Below, piece by piece: positions 1-41,667 of a DNA stretch of 64,000 nt. The stretch covers positions 70,900 through 134,899 of the forward strand of contig DYQY01000006.1 in the NCBI GenBank assembly GCA_020719045.1, written 5' to 3'. The notes beneath the pieces were generated by a model. That model had not been told where the DNA came from. It was given only the letters and a program-made list of their open reading frames with translations, and made no database searches. The DNA is from Candidatus Termititenax sp. GTDB lineage: Bacteria > Margulisbacteria > Riflemargulisbacteria > GWF2-35-9 > DYQY01. The position numbers were made by a program, and so were the translations under genes. How positions within the stretch are numbered: position 1 is the stretch's first letter; each line of letters starts with the position of its first letter.

Positions 1-3000
1 TGCGCTTACTGCCATCTAATGGATATAATTCCGGATCTATTGTTGGAGCAGTGGCATCATAAGTTACGTAAATATGCGTTGAATAGCTGTGCCCTGCTTT
101 ATCCCTTATATATGCCTCATAAACATAACTGTCCTCAGTAATTACATTATTAATAGCATTAAATGAAACAATACTGGCATTATCACTTAAGGCAATTCTT
201 TTAACACTAGAAACATCTCTTTCATTTGTATTAGCTATCTTTAAAGAATTATCCCACCACGTTGAAGAGGATTTTCCTTCTAGTGTAAATAACCTGAAGA
301 ATACCCTCTTATCCATATCAGCAAATCCATTTGATGTTACCAAGGAGTCATACGAAACATGGGCTCTGATAAACGAGGAATCATAGAAACCGAACTCTGG
401 CAGAATACCGTTTTGATTATTATCATCACAATCTTCAAGCGTAAAAACAAAAGCTGCTGGATGATTAACGGTAGGAGCATTAAGGTCGATTGTTATTCTT
501 GTTTCAAATCTTTCTTGTCTCTTAACACCTGCCCTATCAATTAGCTGAAAGCTTAAATTTGCTGCTAATCCTCTGAATTCATTATTTGAGTAGTACTCTA
601 ATAGATTTTGAAAATCAATATCAACGGTTATACCAACTTGATTCTGGAAATATGCAACCTCATTATAGGTAATATAATAATCGTATAAACCACTATCTAT
701 CGTTACATATCCATTTGATGTTGCATATTGAACCAAAATATTCTTTGTTGATATTCCAGTTACTTCAGCTACAGAATCAAAAGTAATATAAAAAGATATT
801 GTTGTTTGATCAAAATATCCGTAATAAGGAATAAGTCCATCTTTAGGAGATGAGTTATCTGTTCTATCAGGGATAAAACCAAACCCTTGTGTTGGAGGAA
901 CATTTTGCCAGTCAAAAACCAAATTCATATAATTAACGGCACTATTACCTGCATAATCGTATACTGTTATCGTAAAAGTAACGGCTCCTTGCTTAATGTC
1001 ATCAGAAATATCATCTGCTGATAAGAACCATTCCATACCACTAAATAGCATGCCTTTAGTAATAATCTCACCTCGAGAAACTGCACCAGTCGTACTAGTT
1101 TCCCACGACAACTCAACATACCAAATACCAGCGGTTGGAACTATTCCTAATTGATTATTATCTTCTCCCAAGTTATCAAACATATCCCAAGTTAGCCAAA
1201 TAGCTTGCTTATTATAAAAATTATCTTCTTCTGGCAAATAACTATCTTCATCTACATCTATACGAGCTGTTCTGTTAAAAGTTGTTATTTCTGGACTAAC
1301 CCTGTCTATATATAATCGTTGTTGATTCCAAGTAACGATACCAGCAGAATTATTAACCTTCATAACGATATCCAAGGAAATAACATCATAATCTAAACTT
1401 GAAACACCATATAAGCCCTGACTAGTTAAGTTAAAAGTATTATTAGCTTGCCAATTAGAGAAAACACCTAACACTCCCAAATTACCAGAACCATCTCTTG
1501 TTGCAACTGAATTGCCTGTTGCAAATAGGTAATATGGATTTTCAGCAAGACCTGAATGACTATCAGCAAACATACTAAACGTAATTACAAAATTAGCTGT
1601 GTTTGAAAATAATCTTCTTTCATAACCTGCGGGAATGCCTTCGCTGTTATTAGTAACACCAGTAACACCAACATTCCAAGGTGTAGTTGCCGATGATGTA
1701 GGAGCTGATAAATCCACAGTAACAATCAAGTTCTTTTTATCATAACCACTTAACATACCTACACCATCAACAAATTTAAATGTTAGCTGGAATCTACCCT
1801 GATATCCATCAACTACATTAATCGTTTGTTGAACGTCAAGCGTTACGTCTATTGTAAGACCAGCTATTGTTCTTCCGTTCAATAAATCCTGTACTCCAAC
1901 AATATTGTATGTAACTTGCACAAACTCTGGACTAACAGTAACTATACTATTGTTGAAGGAAACAAATGCTACTATTGGATGTTGGTACATTAAATAACTA
2001 AGAGCAGTGATATCCCCAGCATCACCAGTTAATACTATCTGTAAATTAATCGTTGGCTGGTCATAAACCCCAACCATATAACGCGAATTAGAAGGTGTTC
2101 TATCATCAAAAAGATATCCATGACTATCCGTAACTGATAAATTAGAAATGTTATCATATGTTACTATAATATCTTTAATTTGCAGATTTATAGTATTACT
2201 CCAGTCAAACCAAACAACATTATAGGTAGTTGTAACATTACCTGCAAAATCAATTATATCTACACCAATCGTAACAATCCCCTGCATTATTGTATTTTCT
2301 ATATATCCGGTGGTAATTACATGCTGATTAACCATATCTAGATGGTTAATAGTAATTATGTTCGTTCTGCTACTATTCTTACTAAAATAAATTACTGCAT
2401 TATAAATACCTTGGTGGTTAGCTGTTGCAAACCCAAAGAAACTCTGACCAGCTAAATCAACATAATAATTATCTGAAGCTCTCCAATTAATTGTTAGTGG
2501 TTGTAGACTATAGTAGCTTGACGTAGAGCTAGACATGTAGTCTCCAGCCATTTGCTCACTAAAATAATACTCATTAACTGTTGGCACAATAGTATCAACG
2601 ACTATCCATCTGTCAAAAGAAGTAACCAGCGCCACATTATTACGGACTTGATATTCAATGCGATAAATACTATTTGGTGTTAATGATGTATACACCAGAC
2701 CATCCCCTGTAGCGATATCTATATCATAAGTGCTCATCCAGCTTAAGTTCTTATAGTCCTCACTAATACTTAAACTATTAAAAGGATATCTTCTAGCCTG
2801 ATAATAATACTTATTTTCTGGCAACCCAGAATGACTGTCATTAAAATCAGCACTAAGCCTAATATTGCGAGTTGAACGACTAAAGGCTGTTCCATCAACT
2901 ATTCCATATTCCGTATAGTCCCTAGTTGCAATAAAGAAATAGTCACTAGCCCTAAATACCGCAGAGCCCGTCGGAGGCGTCACGTCTACAGTTATTACAA

Positions 3001-6000
3001 TGCTGTTTTCTGGCACCAATGCACTATCAAGATTACCAGCTCCGTCAACAAATAAGAAGGATACACTAACTGGTCCTTGATATTGTCCTTCTCTACCAAT
3101 CCACTCTGACATATCAAATGTAACATTAACGGTTAACCATGCAAGATTATTAGCCATGTTTCGATTGCTTTTCATGTCTGCTAAGTTATAAGAAGCAACC
3201 ACTGTTTTAGTACAAATATATGGCGATCCATTTATTGTTGCACATATTTCTATTGGAATATGGTTACGCGTAAGATAGCTTAGCTGAGTAATATCATTAG
3301 CATTTGAGCCAAACTCTAGAATAAATGTCACCGTTGGCGAATCATAATATCCAGCATTAATACTTATTGGTGCTCCACCCAAACCATCCTCATTACTATT
3401 ATCACTTACATTAATTATAGCTATCTGAGAATTCATTGTATTTATTGAATCAAAAATCAATGGTCCAATAGTTCCAGTTCGCATATTATATGCAAAATCA
3501 TAAAAATCTAAATTAACAGATATCAGTTTCCCATTAAAAAACTCTAATACAAAATCACGAGATAACTGCTTACTGCTTGAAGGTGAGATTCCTGAATCCA
3601 TGCTAACTATGTTGTTTGTAAGAACAAATACTTTAGGTCCAGACGCTATAATGTCCTGATAACTAATATCAAAATGGTGTATGCCAAAATGCGTATTTTG
3701 CCTATTATTAGCAAAAATTCCAGCTGTAATAATATTATCAGAAGCAACATATCGTATTGTACTTGTTGCAACTTGAACATAAAGCGGATCACTCTTAGGA
3801 TAGGCCGTTGCTCCATCTGGGATATCTAATGTTGGAGTCTGAACCACTGGTATTTCAGAGTCGAAAACAACGTTGAAAGTAGCGCCCTTCGATACTGCCC
3901 CAACATTATTCCAAGCATACGTAAACAAATGATACAAGCTGTTAGCTGATAATACATTGTTAACACTTGCAATACTCATCAGCTCACTAGTTCCGTTTCG
4001 CGTGCTTATAGTGCTTAAGTTTCTTGAAAGAAGAACCAGCTGATTAAATGTTGTTGGTAGCATACTATGTGAATCAACGAACAATACCTTTAGTTTTGGA
4101 GTACTATTGCTGCTAATAAACACAGTGTTTGTACTTAATCCATAGTGACCAAACATTGACGCGTTTCCTTGATATCCAAACCCAACATCAAAACTTACAC
4201 CACCGAAAACAGATGTGGTTGGCGAGGAAAGATCTACTGTTGAAATAAAAGCCATTGAGCTCGTTGCTGAAAGATTACCTGCACCATCAATAACCTTAAG
4301 TTTTATTGCTGTTTGACCTTGATAGCCTGTCTCTTTAACAAACTCCTCCAGGTTAACTGTTACTGATACAGTCAAGGATCTCAAATTGCCTGTCTGAAAA
4401 ATATCCTCAGTAAAACTATAAGTTGAAATAACCTTATCAAGACTAACTGGCACAAAAATTTCTGAATTAGCTGTAGAAACAAAAACCTCAAAAGGGATAT
4501 GTGGGATACGTAAGTAACTAAGTTGGGTTCTATCATTTGCAGTAATTGTGAAATGAACTATAAAATCTACAGTCGTCTGATCATAGTAGCCAGACATCCC
4601 GCTTGCCTCATAAGGATTAATGGTTAGCATGCCCCCAACACCTAAATTCTTCACATTATCAGTTACTGCTTCATATCTTTCTATTTGCGCATTTAAAGTA
4701 TTATTGATATCTATAATAAATGGACCAATATTAAAGGTAGCTATGTTGCCAGCAAAGTCTATGGCTATTAATGAAAAAGTAATTGAATGTTCACCAATGC
4801 CTTCTAAATATTCCTTAGATATAACAAAGTTATTCTGAGTATTTGGATTCAAATCACTTGAAGCGATCGACACATACTTATTAGAAGTAATATACTTAAG
4901 TTCATAGCTAAATATGCCCAAATTATTGTTATTATTAAATATATTTGAAGAAGCGATATAGGCATTATCAGAAACTATCCATCGAACATTTATGGTTGAT
5001 AACTGAATAAAATTCTCAGATGAAGAACTATAGGTAGACCCTCCACCCTGTTGTTTTGCTTCAAACAAGGATGAAGTTGGTGGAACATTGTCAATAACTA
5101 TATACTTTGGCTCTGACTTATTTACAACTCCTGCCATATTTGCTACATAATTATGAACAACATAGTAATAATTTGGACTAGCACCACCAAAACTATTAAA
5201 ACTAGCGATTGAAACTGTTGGCGAATTATTCCAACCAGTATTCCATGATGCAATATGTCCACCCGATAAACTAAACTTATCTATTAAATAATTATTCCAA
5301 GTTACTTTTAAACTACTATGTATATCTGTTGCAGAAGAACTTATAATTAACTGATTGCTAGTATTATGGAAAGCAAAATTAACTGAAATACCATAATTCA
5401 ATAAAGAGTTTTCTGTTGATACAAAGAAATAATTATTATTCTCAGTTATAAAGATAAATTCTTGCTCTGGAGGAGTAAGGTCAACAGTAACTAAGATAGC
5501 ATTAGATGTTGGAGACAAGTTGCCAGCACCATCTATTATTTTAAATGACAAAGAAACTATTCCCTGATAAAGACTAGTTCCAATATATTCCTTAAGATCA
5601 ATTGTGACTGAAATAGTTACACCTGCCAAATTAGGAACTAAGATTATACTTGGCAACTTGTTATAAGTAGCCATAACATTTACGGAAGATACTTCTTTCC
5701 ACTGCAAATCTGAAGTTGCAACGTAAACAACCAACGGAATATGATTAGCTGTCAGGTAACTTAACTGAGTCGTGTCATGAGCATTTAAACTCAAGTGAAT
5801 AACAATATTAACTGATGTTTGATCATAGTACCCAACAGTAAGAGCTGCTTGGTATGGGGTAAGCTCAAATCCAGTATAATTAGTAACATTGGCAACATTA
5901 TCTGTAACTTTCTCAAAAAACTTAATCTGTTCATTTAATGTATTTGACCAATCAAAAAAGTAGTAAGAAGAATTTTGGGACGCAATGTTTCCGCAAAAAT

Positions 6001-35200: not shown

Positions 35201-38200
35201 ACTTAAATTTAAAGATGCCATACCAGATTGTAGTACAAATGAAACACCATTAGCTAAATAACCAATCGCATTGAGGGATGAAACAGCGCCATTTCTTGCA
35301 TTTATCGTTATTTCAATAGCATCAAAAGTTACACCAGACATCCACTCCTGGTCAGTGTTATACCATCTATCTTGTTTTGAAACATCTACACTAACTGAGC
35401 TATTTAGAACTGGGTATGTTGTATCTTTCTTAATGGTAAACAAGACTGAAGACACTGATACATTCCCAGCACCATCCTCCACCTTTATTCTAATATCATT
35501 ATAGCCCTGTGATAATAAGTTCCAGCTAATGCTCCATCCAACAGGATAACTATTGCTATTTACTGAACGACTTATTACAAACCAGGTCGTATTATCAGTA
35601 ACAACAGCATAAGAAACTGTGGAAATCCTTGATCCTCCACTATCACTAAAGCTCAACTGAATACTACTTAACCAGCTAGGAGCTGTTCCATGCCACAATT
35701 GTGCTTCAGCATTATGCTCACCAGAATAACTCCAAGAAGGAAATGACTGATCCTTCCGTACCGAAAAAATAATTGGTGATAATAAATTATTTCCAGCATT
35801 ATCAGTAAGAGCTAATCTGACATCAGTTTGGCCTTCATTAAAGGAATTCCAATTAGTTGTAATTGAAGAGTACACTCCACCATAATTACCCATAGCCTCT
35901 TTTATTATTATATTTCTTGTTGCTCCACTGTTTATAAAAAACAAACCTATATCCTCAAGACCTGAATAGCCCATGTCCTGTACCCTAAGTGGTAACTCAT
36001 CATAAATATTTGTGGTGTTATACCATATACTATATGGTGCTGTTGAAAAACGATTATCAGTAACGTTATAACTAGGGACAAGTGTATCTTTTTTAACTGA
36101 GAAAATCACATTAGTTGTTGCTACGTTAGCGGCATTATCTGAAACATAAGCTAATATATCATTAGTACCCTCGGCTAATACAGCAAAGCTAATAGCCCAG
36201 TTTTGTAAAAAATTATTAGAAGGTGAATTGTACTCTCCAATAGCATTCCTAGTTAATGTCCCATTAATTGAAACAACATAATCTATTCTATTAATTAAAG
36301 ACATCCCGCCATCATGAAAATCTATATCAAGATCAGTCATCCATGATTGTAAGTTTTTATACCATATATTCTGAAGAGACAAAGTAGGCACAGCATTAAT
36401 AACTATTGTAGGTACAGCTATGTCCTTTCTAATCTTAAACAACAGCTCGCTATGGTTATTGCCTGCATTGTCAGTAATAGATGCATAGATAATATTTAAG
36501 TCAGAAGTGATGTCAGCCCAAGGAATTGTCCATTTACTATTAAATACGCGCTGTCTATTTGGTAAACCGCTAGCAATATTAACTCTCTTATTAAAAACAC
36601 TATCATGATACAAAATGTAATCAATAGAGCCCAACCCTGAATATTCATAACTTGCGCCACCAGCGTCTGCAAATTGAATAGGCATTGTTGGCCACCATTC
36701 AGGCTGTAAGCTAGACCATGAGCCCTCGTTATTCCAAAAATATGGCTCACCAAATAATTGATTAATTACAACCGGTGCCCATGTATCTTTGTTAAATGAA
36801 GCGACGATTGTTGTATATTCTTTTTTGTTCCCTGCAAAGTCTTCTAACCCAACTACTATATCATTTGGTCCTTGGTTTGCGCTTTCAAAACTAAAACTAA
36901 AAGATGAGATAGCCATATCATATGTTACATACTCGTTTCTTGTTAAAGACTCATAAGCATTTATAACTACTGGAGAAAGACCTGCTCTACTATACTTATA
37001 ATAAACTTTTTTAATCTTTGAAAGCTCTTGATCATAGAATATAAAATCATTGCGAGTCACATTTAAGTACATCCAATTAAGAGTAGAGCTAAAATAAGAG
37101 TCACTCTGTGTAAAGCTAAAACTAACAACATCATAGCTTGGAACTACCGTGTCTCGCTTAATGCTAAACAACACATTACTTATATTATTGTTGCCTGCAT
37201 TATCCGTAACAGATACCTTAACATTATTCGTTCCCTCACCAAATAAAGACCAATTCATTCCCCAATTCTCATATGTTTGATAGTTCCCATTGGAAAAAAT
37301 AACGGACATTGTTGTATTTGAACCATTCTCAATAATGTATCTAGCTTCTTTAAGATTAGAGCTACCAATATCTACAAATACAGCAGGAACATCTGAAATA
37401 TCAGCCTCTTCATAAAAAACCCCTTCGTAGAAAAAGGCATCTGCTGGATTTGCTAATGGCTCGTGGTTATACCACCTCCAAATATACTTAAGGTCTTGAG
37501 TATTTATGCTTTGAATAACATCAGGAGAGGTAATATCTTTTTTAATCCAGAATAAAACACTAGATGATGTAATATTTCCAGCATTATCAGAAACAACTAC
37601 TGAAATTGTATTAACTCCATTAACTAAAATACCCCAAGATACAGCCCAATTATTGCTATAACTCATTACTGACGAACCAATATTATCACTAATTACCATA
37701 AAAATAGAGCCAGAGGCATTTTCAACCTTATAATATATCTTAGAAATACCTGAGCCACCTAAATCAGTAAAACTAACAGAAATACTGTTCATCCAGTTCT
37801 GAGGTTTATTGTACCAAGTATTATATGTTGCAACTGGTAGCGTCATCCCATTATTATAAGAAGGAGGCACAATATCTTTTAAAACAGTAAAAGCTTTACT
37901 TACTATTGACCATCCCGCATTATCATTAAAGGAAACATATACCTCGTTAACACCATTTGTTAACAAACTCCACGACATGTTCCATGTAGTGCTTCTAACA
38001 GCTAGGTTTACATTTGTATCTAGTGTAGTTGTTCTTGTCCAAGAAGAAACATTGTTAGAAACAATATAATAAATATCTTTTAATAGAGAATACCCTTCAT
38101 CATAAAAATTAATGCTTATCGTATTAAAGAAGTCTGGTGTTGTGTTAGTCCAAACTGGAGAATAATTAACATTATTACTAAAAGATGGCGCCTTAGTATC

Positions 38201-41200
38201 TAGCTTAATATTAAACAGTAAATCCGTTCCAAGTAAAACTAAGTTTCCAGCATTATCAGAAATAACCACATATATATTATTCGTGCCATCCTCAAAATAG
38301 TCTGTTGTTAATATCCAACTACTACTATACGATTCAATATTCATATTTCGTGAAATATCATACTGTCTCATTCCACCTGTAAGTACCGCTACAATGTACC
38401 CAAGATAATTTAAACTTGAACCACCAAAATCATAAAAATTTACATCCTGAATAGAAATTTCTGATGGCAACTCTCTATACCAAATATTAAAAGTATTAAT
38501 ACTTGAACCAGTTACAAATCCTGGTCTAGTTGTATCCTTCCTAATTGTAAATAGCTTGTCCGAATATTCTACGTTACCAGCATTGTCCTCTATTGTTGCA
38601 TAAATATCATTTATTCCCTGCTGAACCCAGCCCCAAGCAAAACTATCGCCTAGATCATATGTTTTACCAGAAACTCCTAATAATAAACGATTAGTTGTTG
38701 TATTAGTTACTCTATCATAAACGTTTAAAGTCACCACTTTAAGGTTAGAGTATCCTTCATCATTACAAGTTACACTTAGCTCATCCATCCAACTAGGTCT
38801 AGCAGAATACCAGCTGCTATATTTAACATCATCTACACTTTCTGCACTTATTATGTTTGGAGAAGTTATATCCTTCATTATATAAAAAAGAATCGGAGAA
38901 ATTGTTTCGTTATTTGCATTATCTTTAATTCTTAATTTAATATTATTTGTACCATTACTTAAGTTTAGCCAACTAATGCCCCACTCCTGAGTATAATTGT
39001 AGCTATTAATTGGAGTTACTCCAGGCAACTGAACAGCCGTCTGCCCTCCTCCCTGAGTCTCAACTATATACTCTACTGTTTTAAGTAATGAATGACCTGA
39101 ATCTGAAAAAGTCACAGCTATATTACTTAAAAAACTTCTATCTCTCGACTCGTTATACCAATAACTATACTGTGCATCCAATGAATTAACAGCAGAAGAA
39201 TAATTTGGCGACGTAAAGTCCAATTTCACTAACAAGGTATCACTTGTAGTGTTTCCAAGCATATCATCCCTAGAAATAACTATAGTATTTAACCCTTCAG
39301 CTAAAACTGAATAAGATACGATCCATAAAGAAGAAGCATAATTTGATGAACCACTAAGCGAAGCAACAGAATACCAATTATGAGTATTATTATTTGAAAC
39401 CAGATACTCAATATCCTTAATTCCTGTTTCAGAATCACTAAAGCTAAGTGGATTATTGTAGCTTACCCAGCTTGGATAATAATTCATCCAAGAACCGTAA
39501 GTCTCAAAAAAGTTAGTTCTAACTGTATCTATTCCACTCATTACAGGCGCTACAATATCACGCTGAAATGAAAATATTTTCTGCTCAACACTATTTCCTG
39601 CATTATCCTGAACTATAATATAGAAATTATTTGTTCCATGTCCCATATAATCAGGAGAAGGAACATTGGCTAAACTAAATGAAAAACTTGAAGTAACAGC
39701 ATTCTCGGTAATATATTTCGTTGATACTACTACTGCACCAGCAGCATTCTTCACATAATATCCAACTTTACTTAACCGAGAATACTGGTTATCAGATGCA
39801 ACAAAGTTAATTGTAGCAATATTATTTGGAACAACTCTATACCAAGAATTAAAATATGAGGTATTATCTGGACTTCCAACATAAGATAACTCTGGCTGAA
39901 CTATATCTTTCTGAAAAAAGAAAACATTCTTGTATTCAGAAAATCCAGCTCTATCATTAAACGAAACATAAACTTCGTTATAGCCATTACTGAAACTAGC
40001 AAAAGGAATTGACCAATTAACAGAAGCATTAGCAATCGCAGATTGACTAACAATGCTACCACTAGCAATAATTGAATTATTATTTGAAACAATGTACCTA
40101 ATATTTTCTATATATGACTGCGTATCAACAAAATCAATATCTATTGCTTGTAAATTGACACCACCACCATCACCATCTGCCTCGAAACCATTTATATTAC
40201 TAAACCACCTACTCTCATAAGAGGCTGTAGGTAAGTACCTTGAAATGTATGGAAGCGTCAAATCTTTTCTAATTTGTAAAGGTGTTATATTCCTTGTATT
40301 CGTTGCATTATCGTCTATGGAAATAAGTAACTGACTTAATCCCTCGGGTATTTCTGACCATGCAAAACCCCAAGGTGCATTATATGAATCGCTATTAATA
40401 TTCAAGGAAATAACTTTATTCGTACTACCATTTTCACTATACAATCTAGCTCTAATATCTTTTAAACCAGACATACCAAGATCATAAAAAGAAATACTAA
40501 TCGTTTGATAAAAAGTAGTGTTTTGGGTTATCCAACTTGAGAAAAAAGTATTTAATTCCAAGTTAGCACTTACATTAATCGACGATGGCTGAGTGTCTTT
40601 GTTAATATTAAAATAATAAGTTAATATATTGCCTGCATTATCACTAACTACAACTGTTATCGTATTAATACCTTCATTTAATCGCGAGAAACTAACAACA
40701 AGCTGTTTGGTAACGCTTGACTGATCCTTTAAAGAAGTTATTTGCACAGTAACGCCATTATAAAAATAATACCCACTATCCAATTTTGCTTCGCTTGGGT
40801 GGGAAAAATTAACAGTTATTCCTAGCATCCAGTTCTTTGTTGAGTTATGCCATGCATTAAGGTCGCTTGTAGGCACCTTAATACTTATACTTGGAATGTT
40901 ATTATCAAACACCCTAAAAGAAGCATTTGCCGTTGGACTCCATACAGGGTTCTCGTCCCTAAATAAAATGCCCCAATTATATGTTACCTTCCACTCCAAT
41001 GGAAACCAGTTCCCGTTGGAAAGTGCAATGTTACCTGCCGGATAATAAATCTTGGGGGATAATTGATTCTCCGTTACAGTAACAACGCGTGGTTCAGACC
41101 AAAAAATGAAATCATTGGTTCCAAATTCATTTTGAGAGGTAATTATTATTTTATAACTATCAGCTGGTCCTTGATCTGAATTATACACTGCCTGAAAATA

Positions 41201-41374
41201 TACATTGGAACCACCTAGCTCATTTATAGTTACGGCACTATTTGCTGTCACTCCTTGTACTCTAAGGTCTGTAGGGGTTATTGTTGCTGAAAAAACATAG
41301 CTGTTTCCTAATAAAAATAGGAAAAATAAAGACACTACTAGATTATGTAAGGCTTTACGAACCGCTATAAACAA
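1..41374 (-). CDS. giant secreted Ig-like repeat surface protein, partial (at least 13,791 aa)
   Basis: One frame stays open from the TTG at 41374 to the left edge. I read it codon by codon at both ends, and the ORF track lists no terminated ORF in this frame, which agrees. The start is TTG with AAGGGGG six bases upstream. It gives a basic N-terminus, a hydrophobic core (LVVSLFFLFLLG) and a likely cleavage after YVFSA, a classic Sec signal peptide. Residues about 30-160 are an N-terminal domain I do not recognise. Residues about 200-7,500 are Ig-like repeats marked by D-x-A-G-N. Residues about 7,500-10,900 mix fibronectin-like and Ig-like modules with one non-repeat insert. Residues about 11,000-13,791 are six super-repeats. 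Bacterial Ig-like arrays usually form long extracellular stalks or adhesins; adhesion, prey contact or a cell envelope coat are inferences. The C-terminus, with any anchor, lies outside the window. The ORF is certain, the function is not. Confidence 0.93.
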   Translation of the reverse strand, partial: MFIAVRKALHNLVVSLFFLFLLGNSYVFSATITPTDLRVQGVTANSAVTINELGGSNVYFQAVYNSDQGPADSYKIIITSQNEFGTNDFIFWSEPRVVTVTENQLSPKIYYPAGNIALSNGNWFPLEWKVTYNWGILFRDENPVWSPTANASFRVFDNNIPSISIKVPTSDLNAWHNSTKNWMLGITVNFSHPSEAKLDSGYYFYNGVTVQITSLKDQSSVTKQLVVSFSRLNEGINTITVVVSDNAGNILTYYFNINKDTQPSSINVSANLELNTFFSSWITQNTTFYQTISISFYDLGMSGLKDIRARLYSENGSTNKVISLNINSDSYNAPWGFAWSEIPEGLSQLLISIDDNATNTRNITPLQIRKDLTLPYISRYLPTASYESRWFSNINGFEADGDGGGVNLQAIDIDFVDTQSYIENIRYIVSNNNSIIASGSIVSQSAIANASVNWSIPFASFSNGYNEVYVSFNDRAGFSEYKNVFFFQKDIVQPELSYVGSPDNTSYFNSWYRVVPNNIATINFVASDNQYSRLSKVGYYVKNAAGAVVVSTKYITENAVTSSFSFSLANVPSPDYMGHGTNNFYIIVQDNAGNSVEQKIFSFQRDIVAPVMSGIDTVRTNFFETYGSWMNYYPSWVSYNNPLSFSDSETGIKDIEYLVSNNNTHNWYSVASLSGSSNYASSLWIVSYSVLAEGLNTIVISRDDMLGNTTSDTLLVKLDFTSPNYSSAVNSLDAQYSYWYNESRDRSFLSNIAVTFSDSGHSLLKTVEYIVETQGGGQTAVQLPGVTPINSYNYTQEWGISWLNLSNGTNNIKLRIKDNANNETISPILFYIMKDITSPNIISAESVDDVKYSSWYSARPSWMDELSVTCNDEGYSNLKVVTLNVYDRVTNTTTNRLLLGVSGKTYDLGDSFAWGWVQQGINDIYATIEDNAGNVEYSDKLFTIRKDTTRPGFVTGSSINTFNIWYRELPSEISIQDVNFYDFGGSSLNYLGYIVAVLTGGMRQYDISRNMNIESYSSSWILTTDYFEDGTNNIYVVISDNAGNLVLLGTDLLFNIKLDTKAPSFSNNVNYSPVWTNTTPDFFNTISINFYDEGYSLLKDIYYIVSNNVSSWTRTTTLDTNVNLAVRSTTWNMSWSLLTNGVNEVYVSFNDNAGWSIVSKAFTVLKDIVPPSYNNGMTLPVATYNTWYNKPQNWMNSISVSFTDLGGSGISKIYYKVENASGSIFMVISDNIGSSVMSYSNNWAVSWGILVNGVNTISVVVSDNAGNITSSSVLFWIKKDITSPDVIQSINTQDLKYIWRWYNHEPLANPADAFFYEGVFYEEADISDVPAVFVDIGSSNLKEARYIIENGSNTTMSVIFSNGNYQTYENWGMNWSLFGEGTNNVKVSVTDNAGNNNISNVLFSIKRDTVVPSYDVVSFSFTQSDSYFSSTLNWMYLNVTRNDFIFYDQELSKIKKVYYKYSRAGLSPVVINAYESLTRNEYVTYDMAISSFSFSFESANQGPNDIVVGLEDFAGNKKEYTTIVASFNKDTWAPVVINQLFGEPYFWNNEGSWSSLQPEWWPTMPIQFADAGGASYEYSGLGSIDYILYHDSVFNKRVNIASGLPNRQRVFNSKWTIPWADITSDLNIIYASITDNAGNNHSELLFKIRKDIAVPTIVINAVPTLSLQNIWYKNLQSWMTDLDIDFHDGGMSLINRIDYVVSINGTLTRNAIGEYNSPSNNFLQNWAISFAVLAEGTNDILAYVSDNAANVATTNVIFSVKKDTLVPSYNVTDNRFSTAPYSIWYNTTNIYDELPLRVQDMGYSGLEDIGLFFINSGATRNIIIKEAMGNYGGVYSSITTNWNSFNEGQTDVRLALTDNAGNNLLSPIIFSVRKDQSFPSWSYSGEHNAEAQLWHGTAPSWLSSIQLSFSDSGGSRISTVSYAVVTDNTTWFVISRSVNSNSYPVGWSISWNLLSQGYNDIRIKVEDGAGNVSVSSVLFTIKKDTTYPVLNSSVSVDVSKQDRWYNTDQEWMSGVTFDAIEITINARNGAVSSLNAIGYLANGVSFVLQSGMASLNLSADFALSFSGMNDGRNSVLLFASDNAKNRTEVRVLTINKDTINPLIVDNRNLNVASFNIWYRATPSFCESINIDFYDSLHSQLSRSSYIVYNDVGINTFDIFTNTLGTPSYLSNWVIYWSNLTNNVNTVDVMVEDHATNRVVSSAMFVIRKDIIIPTFTISTVSSSYQQKWYKKYHQDSPAYQLNADYAVVVTFNDFGYSRLRSMDYIIERHNRTKATINMASFVDHESSTSNLSPAFIWNWDEISDGVNTVSIRVEDWAGNTRQLEVFNVRKDETAPACSYNVTADSSTVWHGTLPTWATQISANFSDSGYSLLKSVKWKFSREETPGQYKTVTIAYDDVIGMDKFGYSAISVSWDALYQGTNLISFLLEDRAGNVTETATFILRKDDLLPTYSVQTVVSVPSQNSWYSVTPDWANQRINIDFSDQGYSWLKSCWYEIVTSGRKVVTLNEQVYSSRFQSYSGDWSISWIDLVNGTNDIFVGALDWAGNSITSSAKVLTIKKDTVFPIISNNYVSPTEGEQAIWYNFVPTYAKAVAVGAEDFDFSTLKHIRYYVTSRNAYFEEAYGTVTENQLGILSYYIPWDVSSLNLLQGTNNLYVNVADRAANTVTTNKLFTIKFDDVSPLIDVSLVSQGVSNIFLGNENWVTYLSALTVNFSDSTSLLKEIRYKVVNRHGVFYEIVSTNINNYLYVEPLFISWNLVNGGTNDVYVVATDNAGNTKEQFLFAIKRDTNPPSFNVVINTIGSQNIWYRTTQNWLTNITVNMEDKESGLGSFGYEVRKLSNTYTHTVNSQLNAVSFNTSVFNVGFSNIFDEEVSTISVWVKDYVGLYSDAFMYLFRRDVTSPRVSVNESVDDNKFKVWINSSSTYLTYFANSLDIVVYDPASHLASLNYGVQEANNASVTWSPVVIEQDTPTYNNKIFIPWNNLVDGKNKIKIKALDLAGNLVESATSLTINRDTIYPGYNPAYHLNVYGGRWLNTANQLPEYIDLSFSDTNPGSGLKNSRYQLVHNGVTQDISGNVYSNDFATASYYVFNNNSWSVSWNVLTEGVNELVLFISDYAGNITTSDKFIYVNRDTIHPEADTSDYVIDQVNWYNYSPYWLKSVTISFRDLGGSGLKNASQVISNDIRKQEIPIRTNINSSNYTTPWIIEFETQKGSYYPLQNGVNYISIKLEDRATNTRDYNNEFIFKKDVVKPSYDNIEQGDSKFNNWFNTSQNWMNSINVDFYDTYSGVSTISYIVVNVDGTNQVIITKSSAERILALTADWSIDWQNVLTNGINDVYVSVTDFASNSRNSLSPVFTVKKDIIKPVVSNNQVSDFAIWYNAVPASFDGINISFFDSGYSNIRQVSYNVFHQDGSVSSSVIVSLSVGQSSYTTAWSLSWSYFEEGINTVQVVVIDYAGNITTDNVFIVKKDSFGPTMNDKENVSSAIQNIWYASTPSWIESIDIDFADNRFGDSGIKQFYYLVTNSVGAYSKQTDVFTNMDGTSKNFIRDWDVQWSDLAEGTNNITLVAVDSANNTLTAVNYLKVRKDISEAWWAVTGDFRTASFDVWYKENTAPVNLLNRVSINFYDTYSGLKSAKYVVSNVSANREFAQNLSSNIWGANWYVQPWGITWNTLSNGVNEVLVVLVDSVDITVTHHVFSINKDTETPTVTENINKSLFAGWLRGSGWSLMNAVVVTLNDTGGSGLNLVEWKISANGGFLLDQPAISQIDGFTKKVGLNLKDAGNWALVSDSVNELFISFNDLAGNSTMSFVLTINKDTLVPSFSIISVGYNSLGWNMQKPSYLGVTLHIMDGGQSWIKEVKYVLSQGYIYGTEIFSSQSVGFLTASSNFVYMMPISWNLLNQGTSTIQITIQDNAENLSAQQSLTIKKDSITPNINNSEKQFVYYNKAFYDNPTKNIAVSFTDSNPGSGIKDIVFWVSHNVAKNEVTLLRDAVTYNVAQWSFAWASINNGYTDIFVTVNDNAGNVSTRNLFKVVKDGELPQIVNSETGSSGWYSDSRYPAWLSQVMVAFNDSGSSNIYKIEYGVSINNAIKWYTITNSEGISQDFIRRYNSYTQQWPISWDVLTNGVNEIFVSVNDFALNSTSSYVFSVRKDVVVPSLINNEALSPKNVKFGLWYSSATPNGMATFDVVLFDRGGSGLASISYQVNSGAWADITRDAHGVATINSWSISWTSLDNGTNNITVSFNDYALNSYSQQVLTIYKDTIAPKISSNVNSPDVYGYRFPGYGDSAASLNFPITITDNGYSGIYVVQYGVSCNKYVGTRWFGSATYNRVASVNNVQLHWLNLTDGINEVFISVNDLAGNNTRTQQSVFTLRKDTEPPNINHTFNVGQVFEAYYPLALRPLTVTPFIVTFSEDEGSSGLKLIKYGIKKVSENNAFVWVTVNDFSSEGNYVYTAPIGISFNALCEGTNAIYYYASDQSGFSASKNCYFIKKDTTIPTIMVTEVLPLNSNVTLNRWYNGTPSWWSSIPIKITDNGGAHISTISYRISRNSVFDSAWTVITNNLSSVDVYTSINIAWASLNIGWNEIFIRVEDRGFNALTNSVFTIKIDTQNPTASYINTNPQSSYNYWYRESNNLLSNIDFNFYDYNYSGLVSINFVVSANRYRITTNIKTVNAGSGTSWRGDSLYDTNWSISHWSLLTNDINDIYVYFKDYAGNEVLSGNLFSYKKDTLTPNLSIDSAFIINNSSPTHWYNTSANWINTLTVNVSDKGSANIQYVKLQILTFNRILVTTNPFTYWVTSNRDVASINNLLLNNFVTNNSLGYWEYLNNGTNNIAIVVADNAGDLSRQQFNTSSVYEFQIKKDVVSPHYDVSGNWLVNNISEINRWHRVVPAYISEVNIDFYDVGYSNLSTIQYVVSFNNGYRSIVGITKNEAVYNQSAFTVNWVVDWSLLTNGVNEIFVSFNDRAGNRVLSGSVFQVLKDTISPNITNNIIGWTSTFNWWLRSPSVPSASWLSAIDIDFSDTGYSKLQVARYIVSHDSGQAKVTTDIMPSVSGNNSYSNNWDVSWSALDNGTNNVYVELLDWANNSTFNFAFYVRKDEVAPTYVSSVSFNAFNRWISLTSDFEATLISNPLIITFNDIGSSNLQAVYYTVSWNGGLVNNGTWQTLNSQLNHSTYTTPVNISWNLLNNGINEILISGNDYAGNALTGSSVVMTIKKDNGCPDFEIITPVDSAWNEYWYKSSPDWLSAVVVSVNDIGSSNLKDIMYSVVTSGQQAWIPIKISHDSQTYQGSFYITWDYLSVGTNNIIISVNDWANNFISRKAIHILKDDIAPGFSNNEQLHPTWHNVEPEWISTVSIIITDNGHSGIKNIWYKVSMDVPVHSSLWQEITSGIKSTTYNNRIIVSWGVLGEGTNNVYLRIVDNADNSTESVVNNLYIKRDTVLPSVSSNLEDSTLGSGHNRYQWHNAKWLSTNYTTFDAINISFKDETSGLVSVSYLISTNDIDSTVVGLATRIISQDVFSRLRFAVPWGISSRDIREGTNRVYSLLKDTAGNILTTNKLIDIRQDWTSPSVTVNQIGYEKSTWFNANNELSHRVKLMFSDGLNSSGVNYGQFIYFNRSTGISTTVDRADVINNQGIRNWFNIDWAAITNGVNELIISFNDVAGNHSYITSGITGIEFRKDVLTPSIIIASRNIAPNTWYNSATQNGLQLTSINVRFLDEGYSNLNQVGYIVSFSNQIVTYTYAYNIGTSNLQAITINWGDLTDDVIDLYLWAIDNAGLVTRSELWFRISKDSKSPVVSKNIPEATFNVWYINEPSWITSIDIDFNELGLSGIKEIEVITSVNGEIISRNTIFSNATTGLLFVTENWSISWNNQLSVGVNEVWISMNDFADNKYYGFVFYVKRDDGAPNVSNNIIKNESPFRSWVNVWSNESNYKLNAFAYETVLGSGLKEINYFTSANSGQYIATVRQTDQRPNSPITRVYPEDGWQINWNALTQGVNEIIISASDWAGQQTQDVLCEVWKDTVTPNFVSITRDSRFKMFLDGWLSEAIINILEGNTYKVVTINVADSHSGIYVINYEDKSWSVLIKTVSGSSLNVVATHNFEKGFFNSLGEGITTISFMVRDHANNSISSHNFDDGSYFIVRKDTISPSYGWRIIPTFNSWYKTPENIITFNMIIEDPVDLDKQNSLLSSISYRISVNGEAHKISWNMSVVSYDKLWAVSWSILDNGENDIYLNVADGVGNVLDTLIGTIRKDTIIPFYKMTAGGNYGQNSWYNSFEGGVITIGILISDNGGSLLDGYSWSLVTRNGSQPVVKEISLGINLTTKNIELRISFDELEQGTNNIWINISDNAGNTLEVAAFTLLIDTKNPVFTDVTFSYQNIWFKSSKDASFLSNVSITINDIGPALLATIQFLLSTGDKQEYFRSVNVLLPTDESVQTINSSAYFNWNWFKEGTTNVYIDVYDRANNNTSDLLFYIKKDSISPNISLGTNLGPKQGLVNSWNNLQWFENNSINIRELQVKVSDDASGSLIDDYMYWISGNTNTFITFNYRFSGGQWGLPYENVNSNLIDYGSSEFLNLNSAAFFNGTNDIYVVVSDNAGWVVTSDKVFRVFYDNVAPSFSLNNPTTGKGYDKWHMITPSWLSKTSVDMSDLEGSRMKSVTYSVYRYSDASIFTTNFVVDHLFISGLTIDWTALHNGTNDITIMIADGAGNITNNHLVTLLKDTISPTIAINYDRLNSYDTDIWYRLGNQPSFISSITACVFTDTGSSNISGIQYGVYNNNFNPNTQWHSITHSVMIESFTTWDIAWTNIHSGSNDIYVRVTDNAGWQVTSNLLFTIKYDDTAPSFSIPSERTFDTNWYRVAPGWLTNVTINIKEVGYSGIVTVSYKIVTSSIGPTVNISSNDVVLIEFSPTFSINWEDLREGTNDVWIIVSDRAGNVSSNKAFSIKKDSFIPSINTTSALSDIWYRNTPDWLGHNVESIATFNDNLSGINSVKFALRVSGNSAFYTGFYNIPTSTISLANDWTITWDIITNGISEIHVAITDNAGNTNSAIIATVKKDTLTPNFELGYLVNSKHTGWYSTFNNQWLATVSLNIFDQAGLSGIASISYRITATGVPVVIATSVNSVSYVSEWPLSFNNLSAGTNNIYIFVTDNAGNAIGRFAFEVKVDTGVPTYDSSSVENKVHKGVKEGQYWHLPEMYKQVTISFTDIGDSGIGDVYYWITTDISVGPDYVKSGKIRYPEVPPWAMQANDFYNGTNNVFLVISDRAGNTITTDKLFSVYRWESALTYNYTAYATYRYKNWHNSSTNDLIYNVLTTFKDISGISTLNVLQYGVSANGQPITWTIFASGVSRNEYSPTFSIQWEHLSEGTNDIFVSFNNSQRYQVTESYLFTFLKDSLAPSFNQLNPVDYSGFRFTTEGNKEWMEIVTVQFSDRGFSGLKDVGYTIESAYALLGTFVKTITSNPVTWSIEVSELRETINYIYSYLEDNAGNTSKNLMMIVSWDNIAPYSMYDYENEDNKPGYLLTKEQGPKVITFDAIRDQNSARNQSLSGVLGYYYVITQNETLQTIEIVNASFNFQQAGATECKVTININISNGTYYIYVRPIDNAGNLYDGLRLIYRLQVDSISPVFSTANKDVTLIKRSLSLLSWIPELVETDFKFFIKISDAGSGVSACYGMLTTNIEVDYSTFTERLVRDSTNKYEITSNLLTEAEPNFNQFSIRNEYQEFYWLLRVIDNAGNTADLKYYIYTIDVSTPNITTSDFTVEIRDRYSSQVIDKSKWFNNTRIEIIAGVSVSKDLEGEPPTGSLVDWRAKRYCLTREDTPAQALNGETSGFKYSIKPDLISSVSADVYNLWIKLRDNVANEWDWKNIAQLKYDGLKPESPSYIYGNNNYPYTRGDSGQITFSFGEAIDYGGSEISHYNFYVYKIDKSLKTTINTWLTATVNHAYTVAFNSDGVNECEFEPVVHIYDNAGNVTIKGGTPVLIDRSSPQAAINPKAVQRTDSSVKIVWQEPLDNPEGTNGSGIKGYRLAMYNYATEDTEFIGEPLGALRTSYDMITDTQLIYNVPIEIDFISKIWAIDYAGNESVTATVRQLPIDIKAPINPPIATTKDESLYSIYANDAIQGLPKPRAFKGGQEDFFHFIWMPGEDEGFGIYSYQYRWLKDNSSQTTGTTTDRTLNLSASVNGTYSLLLKSEDFAKNQATDWEEVYRYSVDFGSSGTSPTRPVSPVIETPLYTSKNSFSFTITSKDNKGAESYYRDINPAYPKYEVSVYKAHYVQPAFGSLSEGGDIVTLNFPTDNTDITIYNLSPNAQYFVKYRVQYGSSGDSISGWSYGSDYVFVDTQNPPTMDSPIIADGEVYVSKNNLKMVYLPKRDTNDDNSFFAGSGIEKYQVQRYVNGSVHNPYVEIPFGAINRVRDLYSTKDVSFPPKQLDEFSVKIRAIDRAGNFGAWSDTSNVCIYDSNAPTLDNIMVYAFVGEAPGSRYDYNNVSINGIVKGFNFRFSWDRPSDDSGVDGYEYYYGYYNLDGEVNTPSVAAYYYETGTLLANENQVVLLGGYPFGNIGLNLNPFNTRFKKEGLAENNTTFISGDVKYLCIKAIDKTGNKSATWKKIFQTKIDRYPPNKPVFTSPATNTVNSTGVTFSWTAVADQAGGAVSYYSLDIYMAKQSGGLENKLMITLNGTEYVSTDISEGRYCALVNAYDSFGNKIRQFELEDTGAYNVPGNQDFGKNPRTDFALLSQWFNVDKTSPATPSAPDKYLELYQGGISTTNVAQMKNIFKFIEENDVDGGTGGDFNLPNEIIRKVVAGENGDKYQDVYFQSNQSFSDLIINNWEQRIDPIVDYFKYGRLTSANMIAEFQAGGLLSTENGKGDYTYAELLVKLKDEMKYVRENPFISGGNIFRKSYYDDDINTEGSLVSLKNAIKNNGVINKQLFVDVITAEATEAGVTYDIPEFLAEEIVIAFSEDYLSSEEVSSPFYRIRDEVRDTKDAIQNIHFAGIIPFGVVSSKNIFEQSGVSIDELDALTKDMTAVGALLPAGDYSGWFIINGEYLYNNLVLSESKLSTTNLNILFNKITVDYKEIITSIVVSIDGQVDELRLNLGKFLREHDVENPSSFALVSKDFLNMDGYFVWKIRGYDDHSLGSGIAKVEIDVSPNQKNEDIIVCDAFTPTISASNFGLATLNVNSTIKLRVTDFAGNTSGWSGDGDYHDNIFIDENSPGRLVVHYFAEDILLPNREHSWSSNHPRKSLWNQGKNLSWYSYNEPPDHIYSTNNFLTKFSNRFVDFAILNDSEGNKNYALELNNFYKTTSAGISYKFDRTKPIPKQGVTTVVGVNSYLSSNLSILGTNYEYTDTKAPLKEYCYALVNLDNKEVDTKLIGGTGISIPITGNNGKRFRVEVSGINKADLEGDAIKSIDFAIDTVAPGNISRVWANSGVAVGGKYWGKSIPQSVFSWTPPEENEFGVSQYVVEISDGSYSSIAIVTASFLSLSDNSFINLTGEIRCKVKAVDYAGNESPWASSDFPLKIDSTPPSFKQGFTVNELNGIPHDVWQSVTNAVSFNFGQLATSFADDGDSGISQFEIYWGPELNRQYGAKISVGSQGYKPESVMPNLGQVQHHLRIRACDNAGNWTSMKTVYITKYDTFIHPVDSLWVLPFQDCINQIDGNSNSFSKSVDGRFYNGVTVDIIWPDYQEEAGISKFYIEIYATGNDISNAHEAVLIKTVTVDYGDPRLRHLINSVPVTKGYLYTCSLDTLSLNGVDVSSKNVYFYILIEDKIGNKSQPLVRSYMFWMDRNTPNAVFQPTLDNTGEDIGIVKTAQSLTWNWTNPYDPGGSGIACYYAYIAPFPEDGSKVTESVRITMNQVNSKNYYFSKPLTDNLYSFYIRVTDNAGNTGNISQGQSVLIDTIKPSLNLVLHSEYSANNARRTVGGIEYALVISNNVGIQVFMKDYSATQTGNVGSGIKKISFDLSERQENGSFLSMNSLSEYATYNLAGLTFNFAQDIVKRITSEAPSGLTINSFHSDQTINLAQFALISNDLVISNNWFSTTNIIYTTITMNQITFNVRERDQFYRLRLYAEDWAGNSATKDFYFYTDLNAPTLDKKFSGFVYLDSDYKFKVKNILGEQGHLNFGGENGYDTKQPEQNNDYKINHYASETNRMNVFPTGNSARYIYSAFDTLSAGLQHAWGIFPSQNYFPYVETVAGRWGRDFIVVSSSAKFYLRGFDESSEQLAFYQNTQDRFEKSWVNASNSLSNNESLSIKNVNGEPLQGAYYNMSTGRTTHDISFNLSLGGWDWARDLVQVSINGLEDGATLNLGAMDYGKNIDEIKFSHVYKSKPIELVTAQTQMEFLYMTSAGVPTQQTYASRYSINSEPWMDYQVQPWLVDGVIGTNTNDIRVSMQIVVSGEPYQLRAWNQRPIFFSNGSSVNAYSGLNAISSNMALPTHNNWSTAPILITYNYNSFYGYSTKNTTGTLITANRDRLSVNAQQYLSVNIPNMYGDRAISIVVPYYVDTRNPTVTLNSYYLYEKLLDLDIEKNLGALSATNNRIIISEQRITFDVPSTEFKSKIMPAFFGYKEMIYVNTLNALAKQNWVTANSVAFVGNITDNGGIGLPVNPFRYRVITSDTQGNKGASHQRWYDAWDSITANINVGINWIDLIWEDKARNYSGTSNAIVVYDANSPVISSISVKESWWKNENQRKLLFEKPYVSTWGIQPLMPNHSLVTTPTFYIDGHKGIRLYFTVHDDAYNEKVLSINSTNVYEFSFIRVLVSRNGQEVATLDIAFNNFGSLVSNNYGIYKVLASSPYDILTKRPSGDRFTTNNRQVTPFNYCFFVTRDSVISNNAIFGSTKDALFQFKLSIVDYAGNITTTDYSDMLWVNNVNPTASLIITVDVLPDTTYRSDGNSRLATASVLGAQLLNNELLAPVHCSSGDLQNRIYNSGVVSFSFRATMDSLIYAKPGAQFVCVWTTNDSYNNNGNVFYAYYGYATSNWGTINSSIIVTASFTFDVFNPKPGTIKVTMDTFVDGKGKYTSINTTTVITESTKIVRFYVSLADAAGNPVFPTASSKWSIITIDITPPELSGGLIFDIHSGNVLNKDKGLYIYYGQVTGNLPTVNNFQIASLNIFASVNSIVYVKTNQVSFNMAQFIDVDSGVPTNDKYLRTKVYATAITSNLAQNAYIEGSYGGSLLYTKNSKKSSTTVTLDIGVYLNKEYDKLYMVDNYYANNAGIITRNSFLVVRDTTPPTISAFSIRQSVSEDRNYLPATWNFYGSQNLVISWKATDDLAVKSGGWLTGADRKGIWFYELEYDHIDANNPTSGYIFSSRNTSIMNIDGVRESAQGFVPTISTSVTINWSDVMSHILEGKVTFSIYAWDYALNYAVTQMVLYLDTGNALENSIKQIIPVTDNTDGQMDGVAPSDAGGSGYFDQEEVSVVIHLTKDAYDVTQINTLTTPSHLPVEVFVATGSRQLRVSFNYVTASIGQMPPILDGSNKYFNTDYLTGNLENVAVFITVDLSEVVSLNSYQGPVTLSFKLVDGAGYLSSTANMTSRITVDLSPPTGSSLFVNSSDIFYNGEIYNNLFDVYGISSNTAFIITTNVGQTVEDFADSHSGLAGEAYWYKFIQKDFSDLALEQKVQSFDGWESYPRVRLSDKFTPELFVSENQLYQIVSSIRNKVGRVVINTKNYVFDTKAPTINSFYIEAAGSQLSAFQRSSLNFISNESVSVRWRVSDNAYDLLGDEIFNEKSQRPSFNGIYNYELFYNKNSSRITIDSGISLNVNYAYSRYNQSSYNLSVLYVSDNIREGSVSMTIFAQDFCGNIASQNSSYYFFDWSNTLNEQIKFFEKVTDNVANVTNYTGFELTPYQAALTVGYYDQTSVNIVIHLSLNAHDTTQLSYLTANHIPLVVYVATSDLQWKEVSSVNVMATYNKLPSIILVPNLAGVTISVTIDLKEYIGTSLYQGIVSLSFKIIDGAGNLSPTSNAILVTVDLTPPEQEFIFITENNNYFFVSTENSLLNYGISVNFAFHNTSNQLIISSSATDIHSSLKVTWNNYLIDKFSLSGGHIASWNTGWNNSPTVSIASFNSFGGASPNYYYVVHNYVANMAGVVNKSEPKYIVIDNVPPTSSLFEAKQQGGGSTYSSSSENFIQLSTINVRWIVSDNAYIASSNIFNNNNNLGIFSYELKYITSNKYVSIASSDLNPNTQNNFVISKEYLEGIGEHSITFSLIAIDFAGNIATFNIGPFIIDINNTLNAQIERYEAVTDNVKNLGVGGMLTINPYEASGMSGYYDQTTVDFIVHFTITANDRTQLSYLRIPHIPFEVFVSTANSEIFVPVSLDKVISTYSFTEDIFQTGNLRSLTVSVTVNLEEFVKETGYQGQTAIKLKVIDGAGNLSATSSMAFISTVDLSSPTTSVFGGVSFDVGFGYQGNASMFGHYGLSTNTVFISSNSTPKLKVLFVDSHSMLPTTFNQLVLLSRNLSTISTRNGTSELMSIASVNNVLSANSLYHLFTYAWNNVGAVSKGATFNVVFDSEIPVVQTPTLDIPDGATAYPKSDPLYVQVATSTIRYVASDNIITAGIFANNRQNTHFGIHHFDISYQDIIASGPKVFVLTNNIVSMDSGISPSSSKQLSRDFVLEFFNGKLISVNLDFYDFAYNMRTGTIGPLIFDSINTMNSQIAIINVSDNSNEDGLGGAPISINAGYYDSPTVTFILEFGSNANDITQLSYLTRNHIPIEICATINGSPYICTKTVVASYNLADMKSNRNMANNLAWLTVNVTFDMSEWIGREGQYQGPVSVSFLFVDGAGNLDSALVPENSIVITVDVTPPTGSAVFRASDYFFIATRDYTEYGIVDGTAFSRSTRNIRLSADFNDSHSGLPENKYYYQARRYPFNSLSISEDYKNLSWMSTYDIDIATGDGLVYTSLTPNSIYRIEYQVRNNVALVTSFDRWIVVDTIVPTVNEYYFSEQMAGDYMSSSTSSYYSLQPLTINWRASDNYYVDLAGQSFFGFATANHQGIYNAVIYFSKNSSRTNIITINHLDMVNQHVITTGYIENTIMQGIVTIGVDIIDFAGNVTTTYNVVWFDWSNTINLQIKDIIVTYDNISNLSVTDSHGYLFDDRTPSNSRYMVGVYDQPTINLQIVLTGDAGDITALSYLMYQHPIVAFVSFNNSIVTVSPEFVQVTYNIVGVQDLLNGRTIAGLTIDVTLDVQQTINVVDGYQGRFQLTFKFVDGVGMLSGYDKKNLIVTVDLSAPTSSATTPWNVGVTGVTNNSEGIPAGYERRLFSNTANFVITFSMFADSHSGLAENPYYLFATGNSVATRDGSGNLGVLGVFSNWQANNTFNLTSQGLYGVSSLDYDVISLDIVMKVNNSAGIVTWNQQRLYIDRVSPEITTFNRTARIDVDEDSYLPEEDNFYNKQAIWLTWDMFDNLGEDNNQLGIVPTAGIWYVELSWETSTTGAVSRGEIITKGMLFSGMEWFLSADDISDDIKQGAVTFTITVYDYAGNSAVNYMNLVFDWQNVPPTQGFGFIPDRTDNSSPKDGLIPYYGYFDQTTISFYITFDSVAEVTGISTKNILVQYATSNGYVTIDSGLYDYYITYNEVAYFQNQVGITVDIDFQNLLEYYSNNEFRGLAANLSFQLIDRAGVKRQERFETRITIDLNAPTVNHPAAFVFTLEDCDDNNQNGILPEFGFYDSSFIRAHVSYDSLVTSNGFADMDKRVFFRLFTLEGKSSSTWWDNSLKIANTNERDVSSVKRIALSDNASIVSFNAINNVITEDSYVYEAYIRDKAGHSYSTHIYVTYDATAPTIDPELYPLDGSKR
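8300..18900 (-). repeat. mixed Ig-like / fibronectin-like zone of the giant protein
   Basis: D-x-A-G-N turns continue here but with irregular spacing (for example near 18,185, 17,815, 17,475, 17,150, 16,062, 15,590, 12,885, 12,535, 11,745, 11,175, 8,830 and 8,265). Between them are stretches such as FSWDRPSDDSG and WNWTNPYDPGGSGI followed by Y-x-Y, which resemble bacterial fibronectin type III-like or related beta-sandwich modules. Part of this zone (about 9,000-11,000) has long segments without a clear repeat and may hold a distinct domain. The domain naming is by pattern only. Confidence 0.55.
13950..15240 (-). other. non-repeat, acidic, helix-rich insert within the giant protein
   Basis: About 400 codons (roughly residues 8,712-9,142) lack the beta-sandwich signature and instead read as charged, probably helical sequence: for example TNVAQMKNIFKFIEEND, NAIKNNGVINKQLF and RIRDEVRDTKDAI. 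Two Asp/Asn/Gly-rich stretches (NDVDGGTGGDFN and ENGKGDYTYAEL) resemble EF-hand or dockerin-type calcium loops without matching all canonical positions. The same frame continues on both sides into Ig-like sequence, so it is an in-frame module. I do not recognise the family. Confidence 0.5.
18900..40900 (-). repeat. array of about 62 Ig-like domains, 345 bp mean period
   Basis: The encoded motif D-N-A-G-N (with variants DRAGN, DWAGN, DYAGN, DFAGN) can be followed from about 40,636 to about 19,588 in 62 successive units, a mean spacing of 345 bp or 115 residues; a few weaker units continue to about 18,570. A typical unit has a Trp-rich start (W-Y/F-x-x-x-P-x-W), then F-x-D-x-G-x-S-G-L, a Y-x-V/I strand, L-x-x-G-x-N-x-I-x-V, the DNAGN turn and a KKDT-x-x-P linker. 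This is the usual layout of bacterial Ig-like domains. The units are strongly diverged at DNA level, so they are old and not a recent slippage product or an assembly artefact. The count is by eye and may be off by two or three. Confidence 0.85.
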
Positions 41375-41626: not shown

Positions 41627-41667
41627 AAAAAAAAACGATATAAGGCAGAGGGACCCTCTGCCTTATA
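41627..41667 (-). terminator. Rho-independent terminator of the perR-rbr-rubredoxin group
   Basis: A 14-bp perfect stem (TATAAGGCAGAGGG paired with its complement across one central base, so the real loop is about 5 nt) is followed on the minus strand by CG and nine T residues. It lies just after the rubredoxin stop and insulates the giant gene from read-through. Confidence 0.9.

Follow-up and report, generated by a model that had tools for sequence, protein, structure and literature searches.

A giant gene conserved across an order of Margulisbacteria encodes a probably secreted chain of Ig-like repeats with constant repeat number and order

Giant bacterial genes have mostly been viewed, in the accounts consulted, as strain-specific or poorly conserved (PMC11573180, PMC10066038), so that their length could either serve a function or be a by-product of expanding repeats. 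Does the length of such a gene ever matter enough to be kept? We analysed a 64,000-nucleotide window (bases 70900-134899 of the 134,899-base contig C3) from a draft genome (G000; 1.75 Mb, 31 contigs, 99% complete, with no 16S rRNA found in the assembly) whose order, judged from named matches, is a little-known, uncultured group within the Margulisbacteria (GWF2_35_9). The window holds most of a complete 51-kb gene that occupies one genomic place and retains ~30% identity order-wide, making it a natural test of length selection: length and repeat order are conserved over the order, so that selection on length becomes directly testable. The protein of about 17,000 residues is a stable, vertically inherited component, encoded by ~2.9% of the 1.75-Mb genome.

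A minus-strand frame free of stops covers window positions 1..41416 (13,805 codons stop to stop), and the second-longest open run anywhere in the window is 807 codons. From its TTG start at 41374 to the window edge the gene has 13,791 codons, a figure that a sequence-only reading of this stretch had given as the minimum for an unterminated frame. The frame is indeed open to the edge, but 'unterminated' describes only an effect of that edge, because on the parent contig the frame runs on leftwards until it meets a stop at C3:61346. In full, the ORF has 16,989 codons with zero Ns, or 16,975 aa counted from TTG 41374, and the computed protein has a mass of 1.895 MDa and a pI of 4.7. It is huge, as that reading held, but at its complete length it lies well under known giants, for which PMC12057145 cites sizes of up to 85,800 aa. 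The ribosome binding site and signal peptide that had been proposed are both present, with AAGGGGG 7 nt before the TTG and a signal peptide at the N terminus. A strong terminator separates the rubredoxin gene from the start, so the giant gene probably heads its own transcription unit. The gene and its upstream side are laid out as follows.

1..41374, minus strand: giant gene, window part, codons 1-13,791 of 16,975 aa (open frame, completed on the parent contig)
C3:61346-70899: giant gene, part outside the window (parent contig)
41382..41388, minus strand: Shine-Dalgarno-like AAGGGGG, 7 nt 5' of TTG 41374 (from sequence)
41639..41667, minus strand: intrinsic terminator, 13 pairs then a T run, which ends the rubredoxin unit upstream
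41676..41813, minus strand: upstream neighbour, rubredoxin-like small protein of 45 aa (from sequence; CxxC-type rubredoxin motifs by eye)
41828..42400, minus strand: upstream neighbour, rubrerythrin (PF02915, E 2.7e-30; synteny)

With 0.0697 stops expected per codon from the base composition, a stop-free run of 16,989 codons would arise by chance with a probability of ~10^-533. The longest exact repeat within the 50.9-kb coding sequence is 19 bp (15-17 in shuffled versions), which makes short-read misassembly via repeats unlikely, and no TRF arrays were found in the ORF. Codon usage resembles that of the neighbouring genes (r 0.865). Pieces of the gene in G001, a genome of the same genus, share 58-60% amino acid identity with it and are most diverged at third codon positions (differences by position of 0.31/0.25/0.53 and 0.29/0.23/0.54); dN/dS was 0.05-0.31 in 300-codon windows with estimable dS, a rough measure only because dS is near saturation. 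These comparisons indicate purifying selection on the gene. That it is an assembly or annotation error, or a decaying frame, has a negligible probability: the comparison used draft assemblies, of which those with names are metagenome bins, and the gene is fragmented at contig ends in G001, G003 and G005, but the same end-to-end gene recurs in independent assemblies, has no long exact internal repeats, uses neighbour-like codons and shows dN/dS far under 1. Assembly collapse and chance are ruled out by the 19-bp longest repeat, the lack of TRF arrays and the independent assemblies.

The encoded chain consists mainly of Ig-like domains on either side of a central insert.

41285..41374, minus strand: signal peptide, ~aa 1-30 (MFIAVRKALHNLVVSLFFLFLLGNSYVFSA), the strongest hydrophobic segment of the protein (from sequence)
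40955..41284, minus strand: N-terminal non-repeat region, aa 31-140 (outside the repeat profile)
18884..40954, minus strand: array 1, 64 uninterrupted Ig-like repeats of ~113 aa each, aa 141-7497 (repeat profile)
15200..18883, minus strand: heterogeneous Ig-like domains, aa 7498-8725 (second profile; Big_3_3, DUF6991 and fn3 matches)
14087..15199, minus strand: non-Ig insert near the middle, aa 8726-9096 (no repeat match)
2..14086, minus strand: second-half Ig-like domains, aa 9097-13,791 at the edge, continuing to ~aa 16,000 on C3

Each repeat of array 1 scored 46-108 bits against the repeat profile, gap-free, and the array matched Pfam Big_13 (PF19077) with E values down to 1.7e-25 (89.9 bits vs a cut-off of 27). 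From aa 7498 to ~16,000 the Ig-like domains are longer and more varied, with ~45 detected by a second profile; those of the second half match Big_3_2, Big_13 and Glucodextran_B and share ~25-47% identity with their counterparts in G002, G004 and G006. Big_3_3 and Glucodextran_B exceed the cut-off in several pieces of the protein. An AF2 model of three array repeats (pLDDT 92.8) was almost all beta and formed Ig-like beta-sandwiches. Foldseek searches with this model returned SiiE as the best match (E 8e-11, probability 1.00), then an adhesin extender and MpAFP RII, with the Deinococcus HPI S-layer at rank 24; TM-scores were low across the whole three-domain chain, as flexible strings would be expected to give. 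By profile and by model, the repeats are bacterial Ig-like (Big_13/Big_3) tandem domains with a predicted beta-sandwich fold. The non-Ig insert stands apart from the remainder of the protein: all compared orthologues carry a segment at this site (aligned slice 240-441 aa), but these segments are barely alignable, with low identity and the biggest length differences among orthologues. By eye, the insert is probably helical. A hydropathy scan of the full protein revealed, besides the signal peptide, only a single marginal peak, and full-length Pfam scans detected no enzyme (hydrolase, peptidase), glycan-binding, discoidin, laminin G or lectin domains.

Matching giant genes are present in all six other genomes of the order that were compared (G001-G006), with further parts of the gene on additional contigs of G001, G003 and G005; when the C-terminal region was searched against 75 genomes, orthologue-grade matches fell within the same order. 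G002 has a complete frame of 16,438 codons inside a 124,639-base contig, starting with a signal peptide. Its product is collinear with the G000 protein end to end at 29-30% identity (1-8618 with 1-8739 and 8805-16438 with 9100-16975), rising to 39% over G000 aa 1-250. The proteins of G006 (frames of 10,929 and 3,271 codons with a short N run between them, running off the contig) and G004 (a frame of at least 12,153 codons that runs off the contig start) are also collinear with that of G000 but truncated by contig ends, and a four-way alignment of G000, G002, G004 and G006 has ~25-45% identity almost throughout. The locus is syntenic among members of the order as far as each genome's contigs extend. 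On the start side, rubrerythrin lies just upstream in G001, G002 and G005, those with this side assembled; on the other side are genes for a hexapeptide transferase, FliM, YmdB, RNase Y and RecA, of which the hexapeptide transferase gene had no match at the giant loci of G002 and G003.

The repeat family was found in 7/7 genomes of the order (E down to 1e-110) and elsewhere in the phylum gave four weaker matches only, so that it appears essentially confined to the order. Within G000, the matches listed for this family all lie in the giant gene. In G004, a frame of 4,313 codons (G004:C7:46854-59333) holds a second, separate array of these same order-specific repeats.

Repeats within the array are only ~30% alike, and their positions can be compared between genomes. 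In G001, the best match lay at the same position for 32/32 array repeats; in G006, 43 repeats aligned at a single offset of 21 (z 17.6); and in G002 the ordered repeat chain scored 2550, compared with a shuffle maximum of 1276. The G002 array contains 63 strong repeats plus one weak slot about one repeat long, and it therefore probably also has 64. The positional match in these three genomes implies that the number and order of repeats predate the family split, and the array therefore appears, within these few genomes, to have been neither homogenised nor resized since the families of the order diverged. An origin by successive doubling (64 = 2^6) was rejected, as no self-comparison offset among 1, 2, 4, 8, 16 and 32 stood out. 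Conservation of length and repeat order across the order suggests that length itself matters. A stronger version of this idea, which we regard as possible but doubtful, is that the protein acts as a molecular ruler under selection on length itself, with the 64-repeat array and the chain of 16.4-17.0 thousand residues kept without net repeat change across family-level divergence; the chain might then form a hairpin in which the central insert would be the outer, receptor-contacting tip and the two arms fixed spacers.

What might such a chain do? We propose, with a probability of roughly two-thirds, that it is a single-chain, titin-like secreted fibre of the cell surface, most likely an adhesin or tether of great length. 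The signal peptide seen in the sequence would direct the protein through Sec; ~64 plus at least 45 Ig-like beta-sandwich domains of predicted fold would build an extended, adhesin-like stalk of ~0.3-0.5 micrometre, at ~3.3-4 nm per domain. Stalk length would be fixed by the constant repeat number, with the repeat order apparently unchanged since the ancestor of the order. The FlgD-Ig/T9SS-like tail may act as a signal for outer-membrane export and retention, with PorV-family barrels as the probable carrier or anchor of the tail, and the fast-evolving central insert would be the best candidate for contact with a partner or surface. Surface exposure, an extended shape and adhesion or tethering are what we infer from this architecture.

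The C terminus comprises an fn3 domain followed by a FlgD_ig domain (E 9.8e-7, 29.1 bits vs a cut-off of 27) with weak Por-secretion-tail character, as Por_Secre_tail (E 6.5e-4, 20.4 bits vs 27) and TIGR04183 (17.4 bits vs 23) matched below threshold. Profile comparison related the tail to the PorU C-terminal domain (E 0.0098), and the tails of six orthologues share near-invariant stretches including SFYPNP and KIYDALGHFV. The tail resembles a type A or FlgD_ig domain rather than type B, an assignment that draws on sequence profiles only because the C-terminal model was poor (pLDDT 59). Extending the contig leftwards, a check that the sequence-only reading had proposed, thus located the stop but revealed no C-terminal membrane anchor at the sequence level; the protein ends in a tail of the FlgD-Ig/Por-secretion-tail type. 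The PorV family (NF033709) was above cut-off in 6/6 genomes searched, and 10/24 genes with such C-terminal domains lie within 3 kb of a PorV gene (0.9 expected), although the giant gene itself adjoins none. Among canonical T9SS components in G000, SprA/Sov reached only 24 bits vs 200 for TIGR04189 and had no PF14349 match, and neither a PorU-type C25 sortase (PF01364) nor GldM/PorM (TIGR03517) was found; control genomes were also silent for all of these, and absence of SprA, the C25 sortase and GldM is therefore unproven. Full membership of the canonical T9SS was set aside, with SprA, C25 sortase/PorU and GldM not found at curated cut-offs. The tail, the PorV family and the closeness of tail genes to PorV genes suggest T9SS-like export, and because the canonical machine was not found we liken the protein's working to that of a surface adhesin that carries a T9SS-like tail and do not call it a T9SS substrate. 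Together, purifying selection, syntenic end-to-end orthologues, the signal peptide and the T9SS-like tail strongly support a real protein that is exported. Elsewhere in the genome, a 1,692-aa ORF (G000:C17:83740-88818) with repeated 'DYxIxYxxGxIxF' motifs and a beta-strand-rich appearance gave a sub-threshold SprA match and no significant PDB match; it is probably an outer-membrane barrel.

The leading alternative, though an unlikely one, is that many copies of the protein pack side by side into a sheath or S-layer-like fibrous cell cover, with the packing fixing length and repeat order. A frozen repeat number and order is no less suited to a packed lattice than to an adhesin, a coat has been proposed for the giant of V. 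archaeovorus (PMC10066038), the Deinococcus S-layer appears among the fold matches and the Pfam scans contain no ligand-binding domain. However, the nearest folds are adhesin extenders rather than S-layer proteins, a 1.9-MDa subunit would make a costly S-layer, and no SLH-type anchor was found in Pfam scans of the protein.

It is improbable that the giant is a motility-linked surface protein, moved by, or attached to, flagellar or MotAB machinery. FliM lies a few genes downstream of the giant gene, contig C17 carries a row of fliG-fliG-motA-motB with a 2,617-aa relative directly behind it, the giant C-terminal domain is FlgD_ig-like, and Flavobacterium moves SprB, a giant adhesin exported by the T9SS, in order to glide (PMC7918930). 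Against this, G000 has ordinary flagellins, so the motor genes may simply serve the flagellum, and FlgD_ig is a widespread domain, with matches to the giant's C-terminal region in 73/75 genomes searched. The C17 row itself (G000:C17:92204-103956) comprises two FliG-like genes (one a 535-aa form that is extended at its N terminus), MotA, MotB and the 2,617-aa surface-type protein, which shares the giant's C-terminal region at 29% identity and has similar-sized relatives in G001, G002, G004 and G006.

A predatory or wall-degrading surface weapon, as proposed for Omnitrophota giants, is very improbable: in its favour are the size class and a case from lifestyle that has been argued for other giant genes (PMC10066038, PMC12057145), but the full-length Pfam scans show no hydrolase, peptidase or glycan-binding domain and the hydropathy scan no multi-helix membrane part. 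An enzymatic weapon was set aside because those scans found no enzyme domain.

Giant surface proteins are already known, and what is unusual here is the frozen repeat number and order. SiiE of Salmonella (595 kDa, 53 bacterial Ig domains; PMC5466336), the best fold match to the repeats, is likewise a long Ig-like chain that acts as an adhesin stalk; however, the giant is ~three times larger, and SiiE is a type I substrate, whereas the giant has a Sec-type signal and a FlgD/T9SS-like tail. MpAFP of Marinomonas primoryensis, a 1.5-MDa protein with ~120 Ig-like repeats, each 104 aa long (PMC4083281), is similar in mass and repeat size and is also built of Ig-like extender repeats, but its RII repeats are described as identical copies (PMC4083281), whereas those of the giant are ~30% alike and fixed in number and order across the order. 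Relative to the giant-adhesin kind (SiiE/LapA/MpAFP), the protein thus has the extender array, with 64 plus ~45 domains, but not the type I secretion; its C-terminal piece has no RTX family match, and a T1SS-type adhesin is ruled out by the Sec-type signal peptide and the FlgD_ig/Por_Secre_tail tail. SprB of Flavobacterium johnsoniae (669 kDa) offers a parallel as a giant surface adhesin whose export through a C-terminal domain takes place in a T9SS setting (PMC9143113, PMC7918930), but in G000 no SprA, PorU or GldM was found at cut-off and the giant's tail resembles type A/FlgD_ig rather than type B.

The sequence-only reading had likened the gene to the giants of Omnitrophota, which reach 39,678 aa in V. 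archaeovorus, have peptide evidence and many TM helices, and were called poorly conserved (PMC10066038). The likeness holds for a single ORF of huge size, probably extracellular, within the small genome of a lineage that is mostly uncultured, and for a real giant protein that is probably exported; it fails in that the host is a Margulisbacterium and the protein has, apart from one marginal hydropathy peak, no TM helices beyond its signal peptide and is well conserved and collinear across the order. A UniProt survey found Candidatus Margulisbacteria enriched in proteins >5,000 aa (PMC11573180); it gives counts, with the huge Margulisbacteria proteins lacking COG assignment (PMC11573180). We found no description of this family, its architecture or its conservation in the literature consulted on such proteins.

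Other features of the window include a tRNA-Ser (GGA) at 50915-51004, which lies in a region of higher GC that separates the rpsB/tsf side from the restriction genes. An AlbA/Schlafen-type ORF directly follows the type I restriction genes HsdR (52543-54930) and HsdM (54934-56379), and within it a 12-bp unit (ACCCAGCAAGTA) occurs four times without a mismatch at positions 57533-57581.
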